The position numbers and the translations under genes were made by a program. This document shows, piece by piece, positions 1 through 8,835 of a stretch of 8,835 nt of DNA (its first letter is position 1; each line of letters starts with the position of its first letter). Source of the DNA: Candidatus Pelagibacter sp. TMED153 (lineage in GTDB: Bacteria; Pseudomonadota; Alphaproteobacteria; Pelagibacterales; Pelagibacteraceae); contig NHHC02000021.1 of the NCBI GenBank assembly GCA_002169935.2, positions 1-8,835 of the forward strand. The letters are read 5' to 3'. The notes beneath the pieces are model-generated. The model saw only the letters and a list, made by a program, of their open reading frames with translations, was not told where the DNA came from and did not search any database.

Positions 1-1
1 A

Positions 2-286
2 AAGAGATTTATTGTTACAACTGAAAAACCATATAAATTTCAAGAATTAGCTCAAATATTAAAGTCTAATGGTTATAATAAAGTTAGCACCATGCAAGCT
101 CCAAACTTTTTATTGACTTTTTTAAGTAACTTTGATAGAGAAGCTAGAAGTATGCTGGGAGTTATTGGCAAAACTTATAATGCTGATGTTAGCTCTACAA
201 TGTCTACATTCAATTGGAAACCTATTGATATAAACAAAACAGTTCTTGACACAGCTGAGAGCATTAAGGCTGCCATAAAAAGATAG
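2..286 (+). CDS. NAD(P)-dependent epimerase/reductase (atypical SDR), C-terminal part
   Basis: The reading frame is open from the window edge to a TAG stop, giving about 94 residues; the true start lies outside the window, and the ATG at 92 is internal. The visible part resembles the C-terminal substrate-side region of extended/atypical short-chain dehydrogenases of the dihydroflavonol-reductase/aldehyde-reductase type. The supporting features are an APNFLL stretch, then F-D-R-E-A-R followed by a G-K segment, a later F-N-W-x-P motif, and the near-terminal D-T-A-E-S-I motif common in that family. The Rossmann glycine motif and the YxxxK catalytic pair would lie upstream and cannot be checked. 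The gene converges on selO, and the strong hairpin of repeat copy A sits 9 nt after its stop. It could be the chromosomal flank of the cassette array or an inverted cassette. The family call rests on my recognition of the C-terminal pattern; the substrate is unknown. Confidence 0.68.
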   Translation, partial: KRFIVTTEKPYKFQELAQILKSNGYNKVSTMQAPNFLLTFLSNFDREARSMLGVIGKTYNADVSSTMSTFNWKPIDINKTVLDTAESIKAAIKR

Positions 287-295
287 ACTTTACTT

Positions 296-330
296 AATTA
301 GAAAGCCTCTGTAAAAGAGGCTTTCTAATT
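296..330. terminator. Bidirectional hairpin terminator of repeat copy A
   Basis: A perfect 15-bp inverted repeat (296-310 with 316-330) encloses a 5-nt loop (GTAAA). Its core is the GCCTCT/AGAGGC stem shared by most repeat copies. It lies between the convergent SDR-like gene (+) and selO (-), so it could end both transcripts. There is no long T run on either side, unlike copies B, D and G. Confidence 0.75.
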
Positions 331-333
331 TAT

Positions 334-385
334 TGTCGAGATGGTAGGATTTGAACCTGCGAGCCACTGCCCTCAAAATAGGATA
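334..385 (-). repeat. tRNA-Pro-like 3' half, copy A (degenerate)
   Basis: Read on the minus strand this is an anticodon-arm remnant, a T arm with loop TTCAAAT, and a 3' acceptor strand ending CATCTCGACA. It aligns without gaps to copy D with roughly ten mismatches. The anticodon triplet position reads TGA instead of TGG, the anticodon stem no longer pairs properly, and the T stem has one mismatch. No 5' acceptor strand or D arm is present. It follows the selO stop by 45 nt, the longest stop-to-repeat gap in the window. Confidence 0.8.
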
Positions 386-430
386 CTTCCAATTAAATAC
401 TGTATTTCAACATATAATCATTATCCTACT

Positions 431-1876
431 TTATGTACCACAGAAAGTTTTATATGAATCATCATACCCTTCTGGGATAGTTTGGAATTCATACTTAGAT
501 AGATAACTATAAGGGTTTGAAACTAACTTTATTAAATTATCGTATTCATCATAATTTCCATTTTCTGAATTATCTAGTGCTAATTCTACTAAGTGATTTC
601 GAGGAACAACTAATGGATTTTGTGTTTGCATTAGCTTAAAGCTATCGCTAATGTTATTTGAAGAATGAATCCTACTTTTCCATTGCTTTTCCCATTGCTT
701 AAATTTATTTGATGTAAATAAAGAATCATTAGATAAAGTATTTAATGTCAGTGCCGCAAATGTATTGGTATAATCAGCTCTTTGATTATTCATCAATTTT
801 AATAGAGAGTCTACTAAATTTCTATCTTTTTCAATGGGCTTTCTAATGCCTAATTTCTTGCACATCATTTTGTACCAACTATTAGAAAATAATGTTGAAA
901 ATTTATTTAATTTTTTAGTGACCATTTGTATTGATTTTTCTTGATTATTAGAAATTATTGGAATCAATGCATTAGCCAATATAGCTAAATTCCAATATGC
1001 AATCTTTGGCTGGTTTCCAAAAGAATATCGTCCATTTTTATCAATAGAACTAAAAACTGTATTAGGATTATAGGCATTCATAAATGCGCATGGACCATAA
1101 TCTATTGTTTCACCAGAAATGGTCATATTATCAGTGTTCATTACACCATGAATAAAGCCAACTCGCATCCAATCTGTAATTAAATGAATTTGTTTAATCA
1201 TTATTAATTCAAATAGTTCAAGTGTCGGATTCTCAGCATTTTTAATTTGAGGGTAATGCCTATCAATAACATATTTTGTAAATATTTCTAAGTCGTCTTT
1301 TGAACAAAATCTGCTTACAAATTCAAAAGTCCCAACTCTAATATGACTAGAAGAAATCCGTGTTAAAATTCCCCCATTATGAGTTTCAGCCCTATAAACT
1401 TTTTCACCTGTTTGAATAACAGCTAGACTTCTTGTAGTTGGTATTCCAAGATAGTACATAGCTTCACTTATCACATATTCACGCAGAACCGAGCTTAATG
1501 TAGCCCTCCCATCTCCTTGTCTTGAATAAAGCGTTCTTCCAGAGCCTTTTAATTGAATATCATATATTATATTTTGAGGGCTAACTTTCTCACCTAGCAG
1601 CACAGCTCTTCCATCCCCAAGCATAGTAAAATTTCCAAACTGATGTCCAGCATAAGCTTGCGAAATTGATATTGATCCTTCAGGTATCTTATTTCCTGAA
1701 AAATAATCTGAAATTTCTGTTTTAGACAAAAATTCAAGACCTAATTCTGATGCTAAATTTGAATTAAAATATATTACTTGAGGCTTAATAACTTTTTCAG
1801 GCAATTGCATTGAATAAAATTCAGAGGGTAGTTTTGTGTAAGAATTTTGAATATCCCAATTTTGATTATTTTTCAT
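431..1876 (-). CDS. selO: SelO/YdiU-family protein AMPylase (Cys form)
   Basis: SelO is a pseudokinase-fold enzyme that transfers AMP from ATP to hydroxyl side chains of proteins and is linked to redox stress. The 481-residue product matches the usual bacterial length. Family motifs are AGHQFG (76-81) with LGDGRA (86-91), KGSGRT (110-115), QGDGRATLSSVLREY (120-134), GVMNTDN (244-250) and IDYGP (258-262). The D249/N250/D259 spacing matches the known catalytic base and two metal ligands of SelO. The chain ends F-C-G-T, so Cys479 is third from the end, where animal SelO carries selenocysteine; the codon is TGT, so this is the Cys form. I chose the ATG at 1876 because the upstream in-frame candidate at 1882 is a TTG. 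It has no clear Shine-Dalgarno sequence, and its start lies 20 nt beyond the copy B hairpin. It forms a single-gene unit between copies A and B. Confidence 0.95.
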   Translation of the reverse strand: MKNNQNWDIQNSYTKLPSEFYSMQLPEKVIKPQVIYFNSNLASELGLEFLSKTEISDYFSGNKIPEGSISISQAYAGHQFGNFTMLGDGRAVLLGEKVSPQNIIYDIQLKGSGRTLYSRQGDGRATLSSVLREYVISEAMYYLGIPTTRSLAVIQTGEKVYRAETHNGGILTRISSSHIRVGTFEFVSRFCSKDDLEIFTKYVIDRHYPQIKNAENPTLELFELIMIKQIHLITDWMRVGFIHGVMNTDNMTISGETIDYGPCAFMNAYNPNTVFSSIDKNGRYSFGNQPKIAYWNLAILANALIPIISNNQEKSIQMVTKKLNKFSTLFSNSWYKMMCKKLGIRKPIEKDRNLVDSLLKLMNNQRADYTNTFAALTLNTLSNDSLFTSNKFKQWEKQWKSRIHSSNNISDSFKLMQTQNPLVVPRNHLVELALDNSENGNYDEYDNLIKLVSNPYSYLSKYEFQTIPEGYDDSYKTFCGT

Positions 1877-1896
1877 ATACAAATCTACAAAACAAA

Positions 1897-1919
1897 AAAG
1901 CCTCTATAAAAGAGGCTTT
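1897..1919 (-). terminator. Hairpin terminator of repeat copy B
   Basis: A 9-bp perfect stem (1897-1905 with 1911-1919, core GCCTCT/AGAGGC) has loop ATAAA; on the minus strand it is followed by a T6-G-T4 tract. It has the form of a Rho-independent terminator but lies between the divergent genes selO and mnmH, downstream of no gene. It therefore belongs to the repeat unit rather than to a local transcript, and its last paired base is only 20 nt before the selO start codon. Confidence 0.75.
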
Positions 1920-1928
1920 CTAATTTGT

Positions 1929-1984
1929 TGTCGAGGTAACAGGATTCGAACCTGCAACCCGCTACTGCCAAAGCAGAGCGGGTT
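1929..1984 (-). repeat. tRNA-Pro-like 3' half, copy B
   Basis: The T arm (GCAGG, loop TTCGAAT, CCTGT with a G-U end pair) and 3' strand TACCTCG-ACA match the other copies. The anticodon region differs: it reads CTGC-TTTG-GCAG enclosed by CCCGCT/AGCGGG (1958-1982), a strong near-continuous hairpin with one bulged T in place of a normal 5-bp/7-nt anticodon arm. The fragment is a diverged or rebuilt member of the family. No 5' half is present. Confidence 0.8.
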
Positions 1985-2031
1985 ATTTTTTTAATTTTAT
2001 TATATATTATATACAGAAATAGAATTCTTAT
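1985..2031 (+). promoter_or_regulatory. Probable mnmH promoter region
   Basis: This 47-nt AT-only tract separates repeat copy B from the mnmH start codon. It contains TATATT and TATTAT hexamers around 2001-2011, which could serve as a -10 element. No convincing -35 element is seen. Because mnmH runs opposite to the repeats, its promoter must lie here or within copy B. Confidence 0.25.
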
Positions 2032-3084
2032 ATGGATAATAGAATAAATATTATAAAAAATGATGTACCCTTAATTGATTTAAGAGCTCCTATTGAATTT
2101 GCTAGAGGATCTTTTCCCGCAAGTGTAAATATACCTATTTTAAATAACCATCAAAGAGCTCAAGTAGGTATTAAATATAAAAATCAAGGAGCTGATGCAG
2201 CAGAAAAATTAGGTTTCAATCTCTTAAAGAATGAAAGGAATCAAAAAGTTCTTTTATGGAAAAAATTTATTGATAAAAATCCAACTGCATATCTTTACTG
2301 CATGAGAGGTGGAAAGCGGTCTCAAGTTGCAAAATCTTGGCTAAGCGATGAAGGAATAAGTGCCCCTATTATTGATGGAGGATATAAAGCCTTAAGAAAT
2401 ACAGCTATCGAAATACTTGATTCAGTAAAAAATGATGAGAAAAATTGGGTGATTTTGGCTGGACGTACGGGAACAGGAAAAACTGCTATTATTAGAAATT
2501 TAAATTCAGCAATTGACTTAGAAAATCTTGCTATGCATAGAGGTTCTGCGTTTGGAGGTTTATTCCAAGAACAACCAACAGCTATAAATTTTGAAAATAA
2601 TTTAGCATCAGAATATATAAAGCACACTGGTAATATATTATTTCTAGAGGATGAATCGCGAAGGATAGGAAAGCTTGTTATTCCTAATGCATGGCATAGA
2701 AAAATGAATGAATCTAAAATAATTATAATTGAATTAACTCTTGAAGAGCGTATTATAAATATAGCTAAAGAATATGTATACGATCCCATGAAAAAGGGAC
2801 TATCAAAAAAACAATTAAATAAATTATTACAATCATCATTACTTAAAATACGTAAACGTCTAGGTTTAATGCTCTATAATGAGATAAGTATAAAAATCCA
2901 AAATATTCTAATTGATTCATGTAAATCTTCTCATGAAGATTGGATAAAAAAATTATTGGTTAACTATTATGACCCAATGTATGATTATCAATTAGATATG
3001 AAAAGAGACAGATGTCTTTTAAAGACTAATAAATCTGAAGTGATTAATTTTTTAATTCAGACTGAATCTAATCAATCTTTGTAA
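2032..3084 (+). CDS. mnmH: tRNA 2-selenouridine synthase (rhodanese + P-loop)
   Basis: MnmH (SelU/YbbB) replaces sulfur by selenium at the wobble 2-thiouridine of tRNA-Lys, -Glu and -Gln, using selenophosphate from SelD through a geranylated intermediate. The 350-residue product has the family's two domains. The N-terminal rhodanese domain has LIDLRAPIEFARGSFP (14-29) and the active-site loop around Cys90 (YCMRGGKRS). The P-loop domain has Walker A GRTGTGKT (144-151), the family signature HRGSAFGG (169-176) and EDESRRIG (206-213). It starts at an ATG without a clear Shine-Dalgarno sequence. It is the only complete plus-strand gene in the array, an inverted unit between copies B and C. The enzyme needs SelD, which is not in the window. 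Together with the Sec-containing GrdB-like gene it indicates a selenium-using host. Confidence 0.96.
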   Translation: MDNRINIIKNDVPLIDLRAPIEFARGSFPASVNIPILNNHQRAQVGIKYKNQGADAAEKLGFNLLKNERNQKVLLWKKFIDKNPTAYLYCMRGGKRSQVAKSWLSDEGISAPIIDGGYKALRNTAIEILDSVKNDEKNWVILAGRTGTGKTAIIRNLNSAIDLENLAMHRGSAFGGLFQEQPTAINFENNLASEYIKHTGNILFLEDESRRIGKLVIPNAWHRKMNESKIIIIELTLEERIINIAKEYVYDPMKKGLSKKQLNKLLQSSLLKIRKRLGLMLYNEISIKIQNILIDSCKSSHEDWIKKLLVNYYDPMYDYQLDMKRDRCLLKTNKSEVINFLIQTESNQSL

Positions 3085-3091
3085 TAATTTT

Positions 3092-3126
3092 AATTAAGAA
3101 AGCTTATTTAAAAAAGTTTTTTAATT
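3092..3126 (+). terminator. Degenerate hairpin of copy C, probable mnmH terminator
   Basis: The outer stem (3092-3101 with 3117-3126, one G-U pair) preserves the AATTAGAAA-type outer stem of copy A, but the GC-rich core has decayed to A/T. A T6 tract forms its 3' arm. It starts 7 nt after the mnmH stop, so it may end mnmH transcripts despite the decay. Confidence 0.5.
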
Positions 3127-3129
3127 TAA

Positions 3130-3180
3130 TATTGAGGCAACAGGATTAAAAACTGTTGATATCTAATAACAAAGCAGGAT
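3130..3180 (-). repeat. tRNA-Pro-like 3' half, copy C (heavily decayed)
   Basis: This aligns almost without gaps to copy D from TATTGAGG (for TGTCGAGG) to the terminal AAAGCAGGAT, but many G/C positions have become A/T and the T arm no longer folds. Position, length and orientation are kept, so it is a fossil of the same element. It lies between the convergent ends of mnmH and umuC, 24 nt after the umuC stop. Confidence 0.75.
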
Positions 3181-3204
3181 AAAACTAACTAATCATAGCT
3201 TTAT

Positions 3205-4461
3205 TTAACACTTTACTTTTAATAATTCATTCCATCTTGTTGTATAGCAAGGAGATAAATTCTCTTTTCCTATTTTCCAACTCTTAGATATCCCCTGAGA
3301 AAGAATTCTCACTGTATCTCGTCCCATTGTCTTATTAATAAAATCAATTTTCTTAAATAAATCTTTTCTTTGCGGGTGATTTTTTAAATTATTAAATAAA
3401 TTTAATTGAATTTGATTCTCTGGTAGTATATTGCTAATAATAACTCCTGATTTTTTATAACTATATCCTTTATTATATATACTTTTTAAAAGTTTGCCTG
3501 CAACCTTAAGAATCTCAATACTATCATTGGTATAGGTTTCAAGAATTGCTGATTTATAACTATTACAGTAACTACCTTGTTTATTAAATGGATTTGTATT
3601 TAGAAAAACTCCAATATATTTAGCACTACTTTTTTGTTTGCGAAGTTTTTCTGAACATCTCATCGCATGATTAGAAATAGCCTCTTTAATTAAGTTGATG
3701 TCACTAACATCTCTAGGAAAAGTTCTTGAAGTACAAATACTTTTCTTATTTTGAGGGCTTGAATTAATAAAGAAACACTGTTCACCTTTTAATTCACGTA
3801 GAATCTTTACCCCAACTATATTCATATTTTTTTGAACCCAGCCCTCATTTAAGTTAATAAAATCATATGCAGTTTTAACTCCATAAGAGTTAAGCATTTT
3901 TGAATGGGCACTTCCAAATCCCCATACTTGCGATACAGGAGTTTTTTTTAACATTTCTAAAATATCAGCATCATCTATCATTAAAAAAACATTATTTTTT
4001 GAATGTTTTTTTGCAATATGGTTTGCAATTTTTGCTAGTGTTTTTGTTTTAGCTACTCCAACAGATACTGGAACTCCTGTAGCTTTTACAACTATTTTTT
4101 TAATGTAAAATGCCAGCTCAGAACAATCCAAAATTCCTTTAAAATCTAAAAATGCCTCATCGATTGAATAGACTTCAAAAGATGGCGCTATATCACCAAG
4201 TAACGACATTATCCTATTAGACATATCTCCATAAAGCGCAAGGTTTGTAGAAAAAATAAACACATCATTTTGTTCCACAATACTCCTGATTTTAAAGGCT
4301 GGCTCTCCCATTTTAATTCCTAAACTTTTGGCTTCATTGCTTCTAGCAATCACACACCCATCATTATTTGAAAGAACAACTACAGGCTTATTTTTTAACT
4401 TTGGATTAAAAACACGCTCGCATGAAGCATAAAAGTTATTACAATCAACTAAAGCTATCAT
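3205..4461 (-). CDS. umuC: DNA polymerase V catalytic subunit UmuC (Y family)
   Basis: UmuC is the Y-family translesion polymerase that, with processed UmuD'2 and RecA, copies past DNA lesions. The 418-residue product is full length (E. coli 422). The metal ligands are visible: D6 in [13 protein letters not shown] and D101-E102 in [10 protein letters not shown]. The thumb/helix-hairpin region includes [17 protein letters not shown] (131-147). A beta-clamp-binding motif QLNLF occurs at 352-356. The C-terminal domain ends with the typical [12 protein letters not shown]. Its ATG overlaps the umuD stop by 4 nt (ATGA), so the two are translationally coupled in one cassette. I see no truncation or lost catalytic residue. 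Confidence 0.97.
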
Positions 4462-4910
4462 CTATGATTATGTATTGTGTACGTAACTACTCCCCATACT
4501 TCAAAATCTATAGATTCATCAATATTTATATCAGGATAATTATTTAATTTAGATTCAGCTCTTAAAAGAATTTTACCATTGATATTCAAATATCTTTTTA
4601 CAGTAAATTCTCCATTTACAGCTGCAACCACAATATCATTATTTTTTACATCTAAAGATTTATCAACCACCAGAATATCATTATCTCCAATACCCGCATT
4701 CTCCATTGAATGTCCTTTTGCAATTATAAAAAAAGTAGCTGCAGGGTGTTTTACTAAATATTCATGTAAATTTAAATCTAAGTCTAAATAATCTTCAGCT
4801 GGAGATGGGAATCCTGCTGAAACCCCTCCCTCATATATATGTATTTTTTTAAGACTATTATTATCAAGCGAGTAAAAAGTCAATTTTTCTTTTTTAATCC
4901 GAAGACTCAT
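4458..4910 (-). CDS. umuD: UmuD-like S24 autopeptidase
   Basis: UmuD is a LexA-like serine/lysine dyad protein that cleaves its own N-terminus under RecA filament stimulation to give UmuD', the polymerase V accessory subunit. The 150-residue product shows the cleavage site Ala32-Gly33 in [11 protein letters not shown] (E. coli Cys-Gly with the same FPSPA context), the nucleophile Ser68 in GHSMENAGI, and the general base Lys105 in EFTVKRYL. It is slightly longer than E. coli UmuD (139) at its N-terminus. It has an ATG start with no Shine-Dalgarno sequence; the start lies 19 nt beyond the copy D hairpin, leaving no room for a normal promoter or LexA box in between. It overlaps umuC by 4 nt. Confidence 0.95.
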
Positions 4911-4929
4911 AATTTAATTTAAAAACAAA

Positions 4930-4952
4930 AAAGCCTCTATAAAAGAGGCTTT
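4930..4952 (-). terminator. Hairpin terminator of repeat copy D
   Basis: A 9-bp perfect stem (4930-4938 with 4944-4952) has loop ATAAA and is followed on the minus strand by T6-G-T5. It can end transcripts of the propeller/dockerin gene, but it also stands 19 nt before the umuD start. Confidence 0.8.
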
Positions 4953-4961
4953 CTAATTTGT

Positions 4962-5023
4962 TGTCGAGGTGGCAGGATTCAAACCTGCGACCCCCTGCTC
5001 CCAAAGCAGGATGGATTAGCTTA
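4962..5023 (-). repeat. tRNA-Pro(UGG)-like 3' half, copy D (best preserved)
   Basis: On the minus strand: anticodon arm CCTGC-TTTGGGA-GCAGG (anticodon TGG, proline), T arm GCAGG-TTTGAAT-CCTGC, then CACCTCG-ACA, the 3' acceptor strand. The T loop has TTTG for TTCG, which changes a normally invariant C. The 5' extension at 5013-5023 is shared with copy F and includes the final AGC codon and TAA stop of the propeller/dockerin gene. D arm and 5' acceptor strand are absent. Confidence 0.88.
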
Positions 5024-6353
5024 AAATTAAATTTACAATTAGAACTACATCTAAGACATCTATTCTATTATCTGAGTTTATGTCTGCTAAACTAGAATAA
5101 TTGATAGACAAGACTAAGTTAACTACTAATACCACATCTTGAATATTTATTGCATTATCATTGTTGACATCCCCAACTATAAAATTATTTTGAATATCAT
5201 TTACTTTAAGAAATCCAAATTGCCCACTATCAATTGCAATTATTGCACCTCCATCACTAGTTAGATCAATATCTTCTCCTGCCCAATCATAAGCATAGTT
5301 AAATACATCCAAAGATGAAAATGTAGTCTCCCAATCTATGATACCATCACTATTAAATTTTATCAAATATGCATTCCATGTATCAGAGCAATCATTCCCA
5401 TTACATTCAGAGTAATTATACTCATCTCCTGTTCCTGCAATTGTCACACATCCTCCATCACTGGTTGCTTTAATTCCCCAAGCCTCATCATGTATATACT
5501 GAGGATTAAAACCTCTTGGATTGCCTGCCACTTGTTCCCAAATCATATTTCCATCATTGTCTAATTTAATAGTATAGGTGTCCCAATTTTCGGTTCCTGA
5601 CAATGTATGTCCTGCTAAAAATATGCTACCATCGTTTCCAATATCCATTCCAAAACAATGATCATAGTTATTGCCTCCATAAGATTGATGCCATAAAACA
5701 TCACCCTCTAAAGACATTTTAATAAGCTTAAAGTCAAAAGCTTCCTCTGACAATCCTGAAATAATTAATTCATTATTAACATATTTTATTCTATAGGCTT
5801 GAGAAATATATGAATTCAAATTCATACTACTAATTTCATTAGCATTTTCATCCAGAAACATAATATATCCCTGCCCTTCAGTATAAAAAGTGTTATTCGA
5901 ATCTTGTGCATAAACATAGCCAACAGCAACAATTCCATTAGGAATTTGCACTGCATGTTCAAAAGCATCAGTTCCTCCATTATTATATGTTTCACTAAAT
6001 ATTGTAGAACCTGTCTCTTTATCTAATTTTATCAGTGCACTATTTCTATTTAAAGCACCAGCAATCAAATATCCATCATCTAATTCAATTGCACTATTAC
6101 CTAAATTATGTCCTCCAATATTAATCTCACGACTCCAAAGAAATTCTCCATTAGCATTGGTTTTAACAATATATATTTTTGAATTTGGAAGAAAATTACT
6201 TTCACCAATCTGTAAAAAACCCCCATCTTCGCATGTCATTATATAATGCCCATGAGATTCTTCATTAGAACCATTATGTTGCTGAAACCATTCAATGCTA
6301 GGAGTTCCATGTAAAAAGATGAATAAATAAAATATAAATAATATTTTTTTCAC
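5016..6353 (-). CDS. Secreted seven-repeat beta-propeller protein with C-terminal dockerin-like domain
   Basis: The product has 445 residues and starts at a GTG. An N-terminal signal peptide (Lys-Lys, then a hydrophobic stretch to about residue 18) directs export. Seven repeats of an NDGG-hydrophobic-xxG type follow, at about 43-50, 92-99, 138-145, 193-200, 240-248, 298-307 and 366-374, each followed by a strand ending in IKL/VKT-like sequence and a W. This fits a seven-bladed propeller. The C-terminus (394-445) has two dockerin-type calcium loops, DVNNDNAINIQD (395-406) and DINSDNRIDVLD (424-435), each with a following VVLxVNLxLS helix. Such tails are used in clostridia for cellulosome assembly, but in marine bacteria are more likely surface or protein-protein modules. 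Its ligand is unknown. The last Ser codon and TAA fall in sequence shared with the downstream repeat. No cohesin partner is visible. Confidence 0.85.
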   Translation of the reverse strand: MKKILFIFYLFIFLHGTPSIEWFQQHNGSNEESHGHYIMTCEDGGFLQIGESNFLPNSKIYIVKTNANGEFLWSREINIGGHNLGNSAIELDDGYLIAGALNRNSALIKLDKETGSTIFSETYNNGGTDAFEHAVQIPNGIVAVGYVYAQDSNNTFYTEGQGYIMFLDENANEISSMNLNSYISQAYRIKYVNNELIISGLSEEAFDFKLIKMSLEGDVLWHQSYGGNNYDHCFGMDIGNDGSIFLAGHTLSGTENWDTYTIKLDNDGNMIWEQVAGNPRGFNPQYIHDEAWGIKATSDGGCVTIAGTGDEYNYSECNGNDCSDTWNAYLIKFNSDGIIDWETTFSSLDVFNYAYDWAGEDIDLTSDGGAIIAIDSGQFGFLKVNDIQNNFIVGDVNNDNAINIQDVVLVVNLVLSINYSSLADINSDNRIDVLDVVLIVNLILS

Positions 6354-6374
6354 AATCTGAATTTAAATAATAAA

Positions 6375-6407
6375 AAAGCCTTGAAACAAAAAATGTTACA
6401 AGGCTTT
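6375..6407 (-). terminator. Hairpin terminator of copy E with changed stem
   Basis: A 9-bp perfect stem AAAGCCTTG/CAAGGCTTT (6375-6383 with 6399-6407) has a 15-nt loop and a T run on the minus strand. The bottom of the stem equals the other copies, but the top CT/AG pairs have become TG/CA on both arms. The pairing is preserved by paired changes, which argues that the hairpin itself is selected. Confidence 0.75.
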
Positions 6408-6416
6408 ACATCATAT

Positions 6417-6467
6417 TGTTGAGGTTACACGATTCGAACCTACGACCCCCTAATCCCAAAGCAGGAT
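6417..6467 (-). repeat. tRNA-Pro(UGG)-like 3' half, copy E
   Basis: The anticodon loop TTTGGGA (anticodon TGG) and T loop TTCGAAT are intact, but the anticodon-stem 3' arm (TTAGG) and T stem (GTAGG/CGTGT) carry mismatches, and the 3' strand reads AACCTCA-ACA. It begins 7 nt after the stop of the MAPEG-like gene. It is decaying and cannot be part of a working tRNA. Confidence 0.82.
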
Positions 6468-6474
6468 GCATTAT

Positions 6475-6894
6475 TTAAGTAAAAATAGAATTCAATAGTA
6501 GCTTAATCCATCCAGCTCCTAAAAAAATGAGGCTGATTAAAAAAGTAATCGTTCTAGGTCTAATGTTTAAATCTCTTTGATTTTGTAATCTAAAAAGCAT
6601 GTGCAGGATTCTAAAAACAACAAAACCCCAAATAAAAATATAATCTAATGTTGTAGAATTTTCTAGAACCATATGAACAATACATAGAGGAAAAAATAAT
6701 AGTGGTATTTCGAACATATTTTGGAATTGATACCTTGCAGATTTAAGTTTATCTGGAAATTCTCCATCATAAAGCTGAAATTGGTTAATAGTTATATCTC
6801 TGGCATAAATGAACTTTCCTGCTAAAAAAATAAGCCTAAATGTTAAGATAATTATTATTAAAGCCATTATAGACATGGGTAAAACAAAATTCAT
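6475..6894 (-). CDS. MAPEG-family integral membrane protein
   Basis: The 139-residue product has four predicted membrane helices (about 5-25, 62-78, 83-103, 114-134), the fold and length of MAPEG proteins (membrane-associated proteins in eicosanoid and glutathione metabolism). The RxxxxNxxE-like segment (R54, N59, E62) before helix 2, the FRxLHxL stretch in helix 3 and the N-x-R-x-x-T-F motif before helix 4 fit bacterial members of that family. The substrate is unknown; bacterial MAPEG proteins are mostly uncharacterised. It lies 25 nt after the esterase stop in the same cassette and has a strong Shine-Dalgarno sequence, so it is probably co-transcribed and translated independently. The stop is followed 7 nt later by repeat copy E. 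Confidence 0.75.
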   Translation of the reverse strand: MNFVLPMSIMALIIIILTFRLIFLAGKFIYARDITINQFQLYDGEFPDKLKSARYQFQNMFEIPLLFFPLCIVHMVLENSTTLDYIFIWGFVVFRILHMLFRLQNQRDLNIRPRTITFLISLIFLGAGWIKLLLNSIFT

Positions 6895-6899
6895 ACTAT

Positions 6900-6906
6900 C
6901 TCCTTT
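6900..6906 (-). promoter_or_regulatory. Shine-Dalgarno sequence of the MAPEG-like gene
   Basis: AAAGGAG lies 5 nt before the ATG, within the 25-nt gap after the esterase stop. It is the clearest ribosome-binding site among the complete genes. First genes of cassettes lack one, while this internal second gene has one. Confidence 0.75.
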
Positions 6907-6919
6907 AGATTGATAATTA

Positions 6920-7855
6920 TTAATTTATTAAAAAATCAAGAGCACTTTCAAATCTTTGTGACCAAAATCTCTCTTCATGAGAATGACCTTCAAACTTCAA
7001 ACTTTTAAAATTTATGTTATTTTTAATAAAAATTTTATCAATATCACTTTGAGGAATACTATAATATTGATCTAGCCCCTCCGTTCCAAAATCAAAATAC
7101 AATTTATGGTCGTCTAAATTATTAACATTTAAATCAATATATTTTTTCAAACCTTCAACTAAATCTCGATCCTCAGTAACTTTATTTCTGAAAGGTAATA
7201 AAAAAAAATCCATAGGTTTTATGCCTATCCAATGAACAGAAAAACAACCAGCAAAACCAAAAGTTTCGGGATATTCTACAATAGCATTTAAAGCTAATAA
7301 ACCACCCATGCTGGACCCTAAAATTCCAGTATTATTTTTATTTAAACTTGTATTGAATTTATTTTCTATAAAAGGGACTAATTCCATTACCATAAAACTT
7401 AAATAGTCAAATCTTTTTTTATTTATGAAATTATTATAAATCAATGTTTTAAAGTTCTTATTAAAGTATTTTAAAGACTGTTTTGGAAAATATTCAGCAT
7501 ATCTTTTTGTGTTGTCTAAAAAACCATCTCCAGACTTATTAGCACTACTAACGCCAATTAAAACTATATTATTATTTTTATCATTTCTTTTACTAAAAAT
7601 TCCATCAATATTCCAATCCTGCTGATTCCATGTTACAGATGAATCAAACAACATCTGACCATCTTGCATAAATATAAAAATCGTGTTATTATTAATTGGT
7701 GAATTACTAGGACGATATATCTCAATTTTTCTATCTCCAATAATATCAGAACAAAATTCTAAATGTTCTATATACCCAAAAGTGACCTTTGAATTTCCAT
7801 AAAGGTTAGATAGGGCAAAAAAAATAGTGACTAGTAATATATATTTATTATTCAT
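6920..7855 (-). CDS. Secreted alpha/beta-hydrolase esterase (esterase D/Fes type)
   Basis: The 311-residue product begins with a signal peptide (MNNKYILLVTIFFALSNLYG). The rest resembles the putative-esterase family PF00756, which covers feruloyl, S-formylglutathione and enterochelin-type esterases. The oxyanion-side motif MQDGQMLFD is at 63-71, the nucleophile elbow G-S-S-M-G-G at 180-185 makes Ser182 the nucleophile, the likely acid is near FDFGTEG (254-260), and the catalytic His is probably H293 in H-E-E-R-F-W. The substrate is not evident. I chose the ATG at 7855; an in-frame ATG at 7882 would add nine residues encoded by the decayed hairpin of copy F and would spoil the signal peptide. 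The gene heads a two-gene unit with the MAPEG-like gene. Confidence 0.85.
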   Translation of the reverse strand: MNNKYILLVTIFFALSNLYGNSKVTFGYIEHLEFCSDIIGDRKIEIYRPSNSPINNNTIFIFMQDGQMLFDSSVTWNQQDWNIDGIFSKRNDKNNNIVLIGVSSANKSGDGFLDNTKRYAEYFPKQSLKYFNKNFKTLIYNNFINKKRFDYLSFMVMELVPFIENKFNTSLNKNNTGILGSSMGGLLALNAIVEYPETFGFAGCFSVHWIGIKPMDFFLLPFRNKVTEDRDLVEGLKKYIDLNVNNLDDHKLYFDFGTEGLDQYYSIPQSDIDKIFIKNNINFKSLKFEGHSHEERFWSQRFESALDFLIN

Positions 7856-7876
7856 TATATAATCTAAATAAAAGAT

Positions 7877-7898
7877 AAGCATCTATAAAATAGGCTTT
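7877..7898 (-). terminator. Decayed hairpin of repeat copy F
   Basis: AAGC at 7877-7880 still pairs with GCTT (7894-7897), but two positions further up the stem are mismatched, compared with the perfect stems of copies B, D and G. The T run is lost. It sits 21 nt before the esterase start. Terminator activity is doubtful. Confidence 0.4.
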
Positions 7899-7907
7899 CT
7901 AATTTGA

Positions 7908-7969
7908 TGTCGAGGTTGCAGGATTCGAACCTGCGACCCCCTGCTTCCAAAGCAGGATTGATTAGCTTA
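7908..7969 (-). repeat. tRNA-Pro(UGG)-like 3' half, copy F
   Basis: On the minus strand: CCTGC-TTTGGAA-GCAGG anticodon arm (anticodon TGG), perfect T arm GCAGG-TTCGAAT-CCTGC, and AACCTCG-ACA. The T arm is the canonical one. The 5' extension at 7959-7969 matches copy D in all but one position and contains the last Ser codon (AGC) and TAA stop of the GrdB-like selenoprotein gene. No 5' half of a tRNA precedes it. Confidence 0.88.
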
Positions 7970-8684
7970 CAATGCATGATAATAATTTTTGAACAATATT
8001 TTTTTGTCCAATAAAGTTATTAGTCTCTCCAAGAGGATAACCTAGTTTATAAGGTACACTTAAATACCTTTTTATTTTTATTTTTTCATTTATCTCATCA
8101 ATGATACTAATACTAGAACAAATCAATCCATTTTCCTCGCAAACTTTCTGAACCAAACCAACTGTTTGATGACACATAGGTCAGACAGGAATAAAAATAA
8201 CTATATCCACATCATCTTCCTTAAATATTTCTATAATATTTGGGATTGTTTGATTTATTAATTTTGATGTATTAATGGTTGCTCCCATCAAAGATATATG
8301 TCTTTTATTAACTGAACCAATAAATCCTTCATTTTCTAAATCTACAAGATGCGGAATAGGTAATACCGAAAAAGGGTCCTCTTTAACTCCTGAATGATCA
8401 AAGCTATTACTTTTCTGATATTCTTTTAATTCATTTGCTTCAATATTTTTAGGAATAACTCTATATGACCAATCTCCAAATTTTATATTGTGATTAAAAG
8501 GTTTTTGAATTTGGTTTACTACTAATCCAGCTGATGAAACTATAGCAATATTACAACTATTAAGTTCTTTAGTTAAATTATTTGATTTCTTTGGATTACA
8601 ATTTTTCCAGGGGTAATATTTTAAAAATTTTTTAATACTAAATGATAAGTGAGATAGCTTTTTTATTTTTTTAATTTCTAGCAT
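7962..8684 (-). CDS. GrdB-family selenoprotein with in-frame UGA (Sec)
   Basis: The frame runs through a TGA at 8181-8183 to a TAA at 7962-7964, giving 240 residues with selenocysteine at position 168. Reading both halves as one gene is supported by sequence that continues in the same frame and by the motif I-P-V-U-P-M-C-H-Q-T-V-G, the redox UxxC site of the short GrdB-like family (glycine/sarcosine/betaine reductase B related, PF07355). Other family features are VSSAGL (49-54), GDWSYRVIP (70-78) and IGSV-x(3)-H-I-S-L-M-G (122-134). Known short homologues carry Sec or Cys here. Classical GrdB is larger and acts in a clostridial complex; no GrdA, GrdC or GrdE partner is present, so this is probably a stand-alone oxidoreductase of unknown substrate. 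Its ATG lies 20 nt after the copy G hairpin. A SECIS-like hairpin follows the UGA. Confidence 0.88.
8152..8170 (-). promoter_or_regulatory. Candidate bacterial SECIS hairpin
   Basis: Downstream of the UGA the mRNA can form a 7-bp stem AUCAAAC/GUUUGGU (one U-G pair) with loop AGUUG. The loop starts 17 nt after the UGA and has G as its second base. Both fit the published bacterial SECIS model (small apical loop with a G in the first two positions, about 16-37 nt from the UGA). SelB would bind it. No folding software was run. Confidence 0.6.
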
Positions 8685-8704
8685 CAGTAAATTTACAAAA
8701 CAAA

Positions 8705-8726
8705 AAAGCCTCTGTAAAGAGGCTTT
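8705..8726 (-). terminator. Hairpin terminator of repeat copy G
   Basis: A 9-bp perfect stem (8705-8713 with 8718-8726, core GCCTCT/AGAGGC) has loop GTAA and is followed on the minus strand by T6-G-T4. It is 20 nt before the GrdB-like start codon. Confidence 0.8.
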
Positions 8727-8736
8727 CTTAATTCAA

Positions 8737-8786
8737 TGTCGAGGTGGCAGGATTCGAACCTGCGACCCCCTGCTCCCAAAGTAGAG
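8737..8786 (-). repeat. tRNA-Pro(UGG)-like 3' half, copy G
   Basis: The anticodon loop TTTGGGA (anticodon TGG), the perfect T arm GCAGG-TTCGAAT-CCTGC and CACCTCG-ACA are all intact. The 5' arm of the anticodon stem is altered (CTAC for CTGC). No matching CGAGGTG 5' acceptor strand lies at the distance a whole tRNA would require, so this copy also is only a 3' half. Confidence 0.87.
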
Positions 8787-8794
8787 GCATATTA

Positions 8795-8835
8795 CTATAT
8801 TCCTCCTCTATTAGCAGTGTTAAGATGTTTACCTG
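8795..8835 (-). CDS. Possible 3' end of a further minus-strand gene
   Basis: From the window edge one minus-strand frame stays open for 12 codons (ending ANRGGI) to a TAG that lies 8 nt before repeat copy G, matching the stop-to-repeat spacing of the other cassettes. A second frame stays open longer, through the tRNA fragment to a TAA at 8728-8730, giving the tail GVAGSNPATST, a well-known product of translating tRNA 3' ends. The window does not allow a choice between them, and the product is unrecognised. Confidence 0.3.
   Translation of the reverse strand, partial: GKHLNTANRGGI

Follow-up and report, generated by a model that had tools for sequence, protein, structure and literature searches.

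A probable gene-capture array anchored at tRNA-Pro(UGG) in the marine phylum Neomarinimicrobiota

Why does the 3' half of one tRNA gene recur, always on the same strand, between genes that are unrelated to each other? This question is raised by contig NHHC02000021.1, of which positions 1 to 8,835 were analysed; this whole stretch of 8,835 nucleotides is called the window. A preliminary description of the window had proposed that one- or two-gene cassettes were serially inserted at a tRNA site in an integron-like manner. The proposal is supported by the linkage, the orientation and the cassette variation found in relatives. The window is probably a part of a gene-capture array anchored at the tRNA-Pro(UGG) gene of a Neomarinimicrobiota (SAR406) bacterium, into which the integrase of a satellite would insert cassettes. 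The evidence directly seen comprises the anatomy of the array, its linkage to tRNA-Pro in relatives, the single orientation of the repeats, their erosion in most arrays, the variation of the cassettes and the integrase gene end that adjoins the array.

The proposed mechanism is as follows. A cassette would consist of a promoter-like stretch, usually one gene (sometimes at least two) and an attachment site, and it would pass through a circle. Four parts would make up the attachment site: a left arm, the core of the anticodon arm (CCTGC-TTTGGGA-GCAGG), the 3' half of the tRNA and a terminator. The enzyme would be a tyrosine integrase that acts in trans on cassettes without an integrase and that comes from a satellite-like element with the same attachment site. 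It would recombine the core of the cassette with the core of the intact tRNA gene, at an exact crossover point that we infer. The half of the incoming cassette would rebuild the tRNA, and the old half, shifted downstream, would mark a boundary; insertion of the following cassette would again take place at the tRNA.

Two repeat families were returned by a repeat search of the window, one of 107 nt with six members and one of 46 nt with seven. A profile was built from the better copies, including those of the window, and from relatives. Seven window copies were found with it, all on the minus strand, with scores from 34 to 114 bits. Read 5' to 3' on the minus strand, the copies contain the anticodon arm with TGG, the T arm, the 3' acceptor strand, about 10 nt and a terminator hairpin, which is the order and the single orientation first described. 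Repeat 1 (8694..8799; 98 bits, fold z -3.9) is a tRNA-Pro 3' half with a terminator and a promoter-like tail, and it adjoins the integrase gene. Repeat 2 (7867..7969; 99 bits, z -1.9) has a degenerate terminator, and repeat 3 (6367..6478; 69 bits, z -3.7) has a terminator hairpin unlike the others. The best-preserved half with its terminator is repeat 4 (4922..5023; 114 bits, z -4.2), and repeat 5 (3093..3189; 34 bits, z 0.02) is heavily eroded. Repeat 6 (1886..1989; 99 bits, z -7.3) is a half with a terminator, and repeat 7 (292..395; 87 bits, z -3.4) is a partly eroded half with a terminator. Folding is better than the mean of shuffled versions in six of the seven copies (z -1.9 to -7.3), the exception being 3093-3189. 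The hairpin of the terminator forms only weakly at 7867-7969 and not at all at 3093-3189. The repeat search, the profile and the folding thus confirm seven same-strand tRNA-Pro(UGG) 3' halves between unrelated genes, with a clear terminator in most.

Other scans of the window were performed. ARAGORN reported zero tRNA genes, and two of the halves reach or exceed the gathering score of the Rfam tRNA model. A strict half-plus-terminator pattern matches one window copy exactly, with a chance expectation of 0.00. The terminator scan gave 7 hits against 3.2 expected, and the sigma-70 scan gave no excess (56 against 52.9 expected). Rfam small RNA matches to single repeats were rejected; they lie under the gathering scores and are explained by the hairpins. 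Repeat 6 lies between divergent genes, as had been noticed: a SelO gene (431-1882, minus strand) and an MnmH gene (2032-3084, plus strand). The statement that the repeats occupy every gene junction was slightly overstated, as the UmuD/UmuC (4458/4461) and esterase/MAPEG (6920/6894) junctions carry no repeat.

Is the array linked to a tRNA gene? The window does not reach the tRNA-Pro of its own array, and the link to a tRNA-Pro(UGG) locus was found in relatives, whose genomes are draft metagenome-assembled genomes (MAGs) that may be incomplete. An intact tRNA-Pro(TGG) gene heads the array, at one end, in loci L037, L039, L043 and L069. Upstream of the tRNA-Pro, about 16.7 kb are collinear among L037, L039 and L043 with 79-81% identity. 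These backbone alignments end at the terminator behind the tRNA-Pro, and the cassettes beyond it differ. The cassette content differs among relatives whose tRNA is in view and whose backbones are about 80% identical.

The repeats keep a single orientation at each locus. Among 75 profile copies in 20 loci (five of the copies being intact tRNA genes), none is opposite. Opposite-strand matches that overlap a same-strand copy, as the palindromic terminator produces, were left out of this count, as were opposite matches of at most 12 bits and same-strand matches of at most 10 bits. In L037, L039, L043 and L069, which show the tRNA together with further copies, the repeats are oriented like the tRNA; where the tRNA is not in view, the array strand was taken from the repeats themselves. 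The copies are concentrated on few contigs, with many in one genome, and are often about 90% alike. The preliminary description had named genome-wide scatter in both orientations and a fixed gene order as grounds for abandoning its proposal. Neither was observed in the relatives, between which both the content and the order of the cassettes differ.

The half-plus-terminator pattern was found in six genome contigs, four from Neomarinimicrobiota MAGs, one labelled Flavobacteriales and one labelled Dehalococcoidia; a pattern scan of viral contigs gave no match. The two contigs with other labels, that of L041 and L042 (G005 C53, Flavobacteriales bin) and that of L047 (G006 C24, Dehalococcoidia bin), are probably mis-binned Neomarinimicrobiota DNA. 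Three Neomarinimicrobiota bins have XerC-like proteins that are 70-79% alike, but that of G005 is only 42-44% identical to them; the end of the G005 array contig is 98% identical to a G004 contig over 161 bp; and G006 has its own, different tRNA-Pro (L048). With the repeat as query at E <= 1e-5, 17 of the 23 family genomes match, intact tRNA-Pro genes counted. At least one profile copy of at least 50 bits besides the tRNA is present in nine of the 23 (G001, G002, G003, G004, G007, G018, G019, G020 and G021), within the contigs retrieved for the genomes of the family. A whole-genome tRNA scan of two relatives, G002 and G004, gave nine sub-threshold matches, six of which are halves of these arrays.

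Which enzyme could insert the cassettes? A tyrosine recombinase had been expected next to the array, and the end of such a gene lies at the right edge of the window (8795..8833, minus strand), comprising the last 12 codons and the stop; the gene runs past the window. This stretch encodes exactly the C-terminus (GKHLNTANRGGI, followed by the stop) of P0001, a 372-aa tyrosine integrase of L047. Window 8694-8835 aligns with L047 5937-6081 with 141 matches in 145 columns, the first 117 being identical. The same order, integrase gene and then tRNA-Pro half, is found in the window, in L047 and in L128, where the half is eroded (13 bits). Repeat 1 is read as the attR of the integrase element. This phage-type integrase gene at the head of the array is likely the source of the inserting enzyme.

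P0001 scores 48 bits against PF00589 (cut-off 27.1). It has the R...HxxR...H...Y pattern (TGLRLSE at 210, HCLRHS at 290, MGHSS at 315 and RYTH at 325), whose residues we take to have the catalytic roles. Its score against the integron integrase model TIGR02249 is 45 bits with a cut-off of 265, and an identity as IntI was rejected; no other integrase is known at the array. There are 79 relatives of P0001 at E <= 1e-10, and the closest cluster, 99% identical, has 36 member sequences. A relative at E <= 1e-20 is present in 45 of 245 genomes of the phylum. The search of viral contigs returned one partial relative, 34% identical, in a 133-kb contig. As a separate observation, a repeated C-terminal motif, xDTnnxDT, is present in 43 of 80 homologues (P0001-P0080), with x agreeing between the repeats. 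It is read as possible integrase arm sites, that is, direct DNA repeats embedded in the end of the gene.

The surroundings of the integrases were compared in 14 neighbourhoods of P0001 relatives (L117-L130), the 12th-ranked place (G039) being left out. A tRNA-Pro(UGG) half lies directly behind the integrase in L119, L120 and L125, and an eroded half in L128. Directly behind a homologous integrase, a tRNA-Pro(UGG) half is also found in L148; L148 and L140 were chosen since a half was already known nearby, and they are not a random sample. Homologues next to tRNA-Pro halves are present in families other than that of the window. In L118 the integrase meets a tRNA-Ser. No tRNA or half was seen in the integrase neighbourhoods L121, L122, L123, L126 and L127. 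Other tRNAs lie some way off in L124 and L130, and an opposite-strand tRNA-Pro lies more than 3 kb away in L129; like the five before them, these three show no half behind the integrase. Other integrases of the family (L131-L136) are near other tRNAs, and that of L134 is near none. Beside these, a related integrase remnant in L117 (9797-10124) adjoins a half that reads as tRNA-Pro(GGG), another isoacceptor.

Whole elements between an intact tRNA-Pro and a half are seen in L125, whose integrase is interrupted by a stop, and in L140, whose integrase is a distant relative (29% identity). L047 encodes an excisionase-like helix-turn-helix protein (phrog_66, 42.6 bits) and a helicase-loader or replication-initiation-like protein (phrog_186, 33.5 bits). 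An excisionase-like protein is also encoded in L140 and a primase/helicase-like protein in L120. Genes for adenosine deaminase, MnmH and SelO lie behind the integrase fragment and the eroded half in L128; two of these three also occur as cassette genes in the window.

The attachment site was delimited by comparing copies. Over 33 copies, conservation begins at CCTGCTTTGG, and the bases 5' of CCTGCTTTGG depart from the tRNA in most copies. In genomes G175, G181, G183 and G184, which are of other families and have no P0001 relative at E <= 1e-20, a 60-nt attP-like left arm is common to eight copies. Its pairwise identity per 20 nt is 0.87, 0.94 and 0.82, and 0.31-0.44 further upstream (28 pairs); a similar 26-nt left arm at a G190 contig end (L151) was left out of the arm count. 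A pattern search for the arm in the 245 genomes gave eight sites in four genomes, all on contigs with tRNA-Pro halves. The 60-nt arm holds GATACA and TAGAGGA in the same order as the 3' end of the L047 integrase gene, and these are read as candidate integrase arm sites within the end of the gene. In L141, a single gene of 1038 aa, without an integrase, lies between the tRNA-Pro and a half. The left arm of this half agrees with that of the L140 integrase element at 31 of 45 positions. The L141 unit is absent from L146, with flanks 97.5% and 95.4% identical.

What do the units between the repeats contain? Stretches with a repeat of at least 30 bits on either side were counted as units, giving 30 units in 11 loci with a median length of 1210 bp (range 577-3891). 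One open reading frame (ORF) is present in 19 units, two in 8, three in 1, four in 1 and zero in 1. ORFs that largely overlap repeats were discarded, hence the unit in L044 with zero, and starts were set by the crude rule of the first ATG, GTG or TTG. Directed away from the tRNA side are 35 ORFs, and 7 are directed towards it. On the level of single families, MnmH (5/5) and epimerase (4/4) genes always run against the repeat orientation, and most other cassette genes run with it. Behind the terminator stem, the motif TTGTAnATT is present in 24 of 60 copies, with about 0.0045 expected per 35-nt stretch. The motif is promoter-like and resembles the -7 element of Bacteroidota promoters. The 60 copies comprise 49 with a first ORF on the same strand, 8 with one on the opposite strand and 3 with none; copies without a stem were dropped.

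Gene families recur across the arrays in changed order, with epimerase in 4 loci, MnmH in 5, adenosine deaminase in 3 and GrdB-like in 4. A MAPEG-type family is present in 6 loci, and the MAPEG protein of the window lies outside that cluster. The epimerase cassette is 95.5% identical between L039 and L041 over 1314 bp, from half to half, and its neighbours differ on both sides. Similarly, the adenosine deaminase cassette is 89% identical between L037 and L041. The largest cassette protein cluster, by single linkage, has 37 ORFs in 15 loci, with dockerin-type C-termini by eye; Pfam Dockerin_1 was matched by 4 of 40 cassette proteins. Several genes of this cluster stop right at the left arm, and the gene end and the attachment site look like one conserved block. 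No recombinase was found in the first 25 of the 51 Pfam families listed for the cassette proteins (40 of 43 ORFs scanned). PADLOC reported CARF_ADA, cold-shock and mads_2, one member each, which were not accepted as defence.

Could each unit instead be the remains of a complete element? In this explanation, integrase-bearing satellites stacked at the tRNA-Pro and were later reduced to cargo and half, and no unit ever moved without an integrase. That elements accumulate in tandem at tRNA genes is well known. The same site is indeed occupied by integrase elements with cargo (L125, L140, L047), integrase remnants are found in L117 and L128, and an integrase relative is present in few array-bearing genomes. 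However, a recombinase profile run on 230 ORFs from 22 loci recovered at E < 1e-20 only the three known integrases of L047, L117 and L128. Ten weaker matches range from E 0.014 to 0.87. Nearly all units would thus have to have shed everything but their cargo. The first ORF also starts 17-21 nt past the terminator stem in 28 of 49 same-strand cases (manual count), and the epimerase unit, which carries no integrase, is equal in size in two arrays (1219 and 1216 bp), between differing neighbours. Both are against the accretion of whole elements, which we regard as unlikely.

In the preferred explanation, insertion of integrase-less cassettes at the tRNA, the age of a repeat would be reflected in its place. 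Repeat score was compared with order from the tRNA side in all seven loci with at least four copies besides the tRNA; in all seven, the tRNA is out of view and its side was inferred from the repeat orientation. The rank correlation (rho) is -0.92 in L038 (9 copies), -0.78 in L041 (12), -1.00 in L068 (4), -0.70 in L072 (5), -0.60 in L081 (4), -0.14 in L045 (6) and -0.07 in the window (7). The mean over the seven arrays is -0.60, all values being negative, and it was equalled in 0 of 5000 permutations. When L039 is added with its tRNA copy, the mean is -0.63, with 1 of 5000 permutations. Such erosion with distance is indirect evidence that insertion may be polarised at one end of the array.

The gradient also bears on a second alternative, in which homologous recombination between the repeats of about 100 bp shuffles, deletes and imports units, the integrase having been active only when the first copies were formed. 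With their length and an identity of often about 90%, the repeats would suffice for this in principle, and no integrase relative was found in 8 of the 9 array-bearing family genomes. Exchange between any pair of repeats would not, on its own, place the best-preserved repeats towards the tRNA end over seven arrays. The 60-nt arm, moreover, stays with the core in G175, G181, G183 and G184 despite differing upstream genes. This alternative is judged improbable, more so than accretion.

The old junctions concern a third alternative, in which the halves act in cis, as tRNA-like signals for RNA processing or as insulators between genes, and were multiplied for that use. The terminator in most copies and the TTGTAnATT motif in 24 of the 60 would suit such a function. 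At old junctions, however, the tRNA part is gone, and the terminator, the promoter-like motif and the start spacing are kept; in L038, six of seven eroded copies match profile positions 68-109 only. Because the tRNA part erodes and the other parts stay, these patterns argue that the tRNA part of the repeat is a recombination site rather than a cis signal. The linkage to tRNA-Pro would also be left unexplained, and a cis role is considered very improbable. A tRNA-derived dispersed repeat, like a short interspersed nuclear element (SINE) or a repetitive extragenic palindrome (REP), with no tie to the tRNA locus, would account for many copies in one genome but is refuted by their clustering on few contigs, behind tRNA-Pro where visible, in one orientation per locus, and is given almost no credence.

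Several observations weigh against cassette capture by a satellite integrase. The window and L045 have no gradient of their own. An integrase relative at E <= 1e-20 was found in only one of the nine array-bearing family genomes, as a remnant in G019. The genomes G002, G003 and G004, whose arrays look fresh, each have only two recombinases of about 300 aa, which are taken for XerC and XerD from their size and their BLAST similarity among G001-G006. Conservation of the left arm extends over only about 10-20 nt in the family of the window (0.42 and 0.38 with a background of 0.29; copies below 60 bits and intact tRNAs excluded), where no shared attP arm is therefore evident. Seven of the eight arm sites precede a pattern-matched half, and none was seen at G183 C45:3212. 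L146 also lacks the 148-aa gene that follows the L141 half, and therefore the L141/L146 pair is not a clean empty site. Finally, many contigs break near repeats, and no array is complete from the tRNA to its far end.

The genes of the window are described from the integrase side. Behind repeat 1 lies a cassette gene for a GrdB/PrdB-like protein (7962..8684, minus strand), formed by two ORFs linked by an in-frame TGA (8178-8180). This TGA (VPV-U-PMCHQTVG) is kept in 4 of 4 loci compared, the window, L044, L049 and L071, and for this reason the protein is probably a selenoprotein. The next cassette has two genes (6475..7882, minus strand), for a putative esterase (6920-7882) and a MAPEG protein (6475-6894). 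It is followed by a gene for a secreted-type protein with a dockerin repeat at its C-terminus (5016..6353, minus strand), in a stretch 80% identical in L050. A second two-gene cassette (3205..4910, minus strand) encodes a UmuD-like peptidase S24 (4458-4910) and a UmuC-like polymerase (3205-4461). The reversed cassette gene at 2032..3084 (plus strand) encodes the tRNA 2-selenouridine synthase MnmH/SelU (TIGR03167, 307 bits, cut-off 219.75). The gene at 431..1882 (minus strand) is of the SelO/YdiU family (NF000658, 503 bits, cut-off 431); the SelO equivalog models are below their own cut-offs for it. SelO-family homologues are often selenoproteins. One array (431-3084 and 7962-8684) thus unites a likely selenoprotein, a selenouridine synthase and a SelO-family gene. 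At the far edge, the C-terminal end of an NAD-dependent epimerase is encoded by a reversed cassette gene (2..286, plus strand), the remainder of which lies outside the window and which matches L039 and L041. Window 1-384 is 88-90% identical to these loci, where the gene is complete (L039 1425-2441, L041 717-1739); the epimerase family was assigned by Pfam in two members.

How does the array compare with known systems? Integrons are head-to-tail arrays of cassettes with unrelated genes, one recombination site per cassette and entry at one end. The array similarly has head-to-tail cassettes, one site each, probable entry at one end and integrase-less units. In contrast to an integron, its site is a tRNA half, its entry point is a tRNA gene, its cassettes carry a promoter-like motif, and its integrase falls far below the IntI criterion. 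The integrase-less units are also like those of CALIN, integron arrays without their own integrase; integrase-less arrays and satellites are treated as hitchers in PMC11389934. Genomic islands of the Islander type, which target tRNA genes by tyrosine integrases, are typically single and have their own integrase, whereas the array has many integrase-less units in tandem. Insertion of such islands regenerates the tRNA and leaves a displaced fragment, as set out in PMC4383910, and the mechanism proposed for the array is alike in both. The integrase elements resemble tycheposons and marine satellites in having an integrase beside a tRNA-Pro half (L047, L119, L120, L125, L140 and L148), cargo (L047, L125 and L140) and genes of replication and excision type, in L047 and only partly in the other elements. 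The arrayed cassettes differ from tycheposons, whose size is given as 4-200 kb in PMC10872708, in their median of 1.2 kb and their lack of a recognised integrase.

Among open-licence papers, the closest known systems are additive flexible genomic islands with direct repeats of tRNA fragments, described for 'Ca. Actinomarinales' (PMC7771536) and 'Ca. Methylopumilus' (PMC10872708). The island content is strain-variable in both according to these reports, and the 'Ca. Methylopumilus' island is marked by tRNA-end repeats of 20 bp from tRNA-Lys (PMC10872708). In the relatives, the array likewise has cassettes inserted at the tRNA and ended by a direct repeat of a tRNA part, and its cassette content differs among close relatives. 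It differs in its repeat, a 3' half from the anticodon stem with a terminator, in its mostly one-gene units, in the erosion away from the tRNA and in an integrase from an element that uses the site as well; the passages of PMC7771536 consulted link no integrase to the cassettes of Actinomarinales. The array is thus viewed as a variant of known tRNA-linked additive islands, one whose layout is regular and integron-like and for which there is a candidate enzyme. Whether it goes further, as an independently evolved capture system of integron type with a tRNA-Pro entry site, a half-plus-terminator cassette site, promoters of its own and satellite integrases acting in trans, is in our judgement an evenly balanced matter.

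The array provides a concrete anatomy for the gain of single genes in uncultured ocean bacteria with small genomes, in which the site and the unit are defined and a candidate enzyme is open to assay. Trans action of the integrase, if real, would mean that integron-type capture of single genes arose from tRNA-targeting integrases of the ordinary kind, and it would make the repeats of tRNA fragments reported for other marine islands testable as cassette sites. If the capture system is indeed independent, it would have assembled at least 10-20 kb of accessory DNA behind a single tRNA gene in an uncultured marine phylum.

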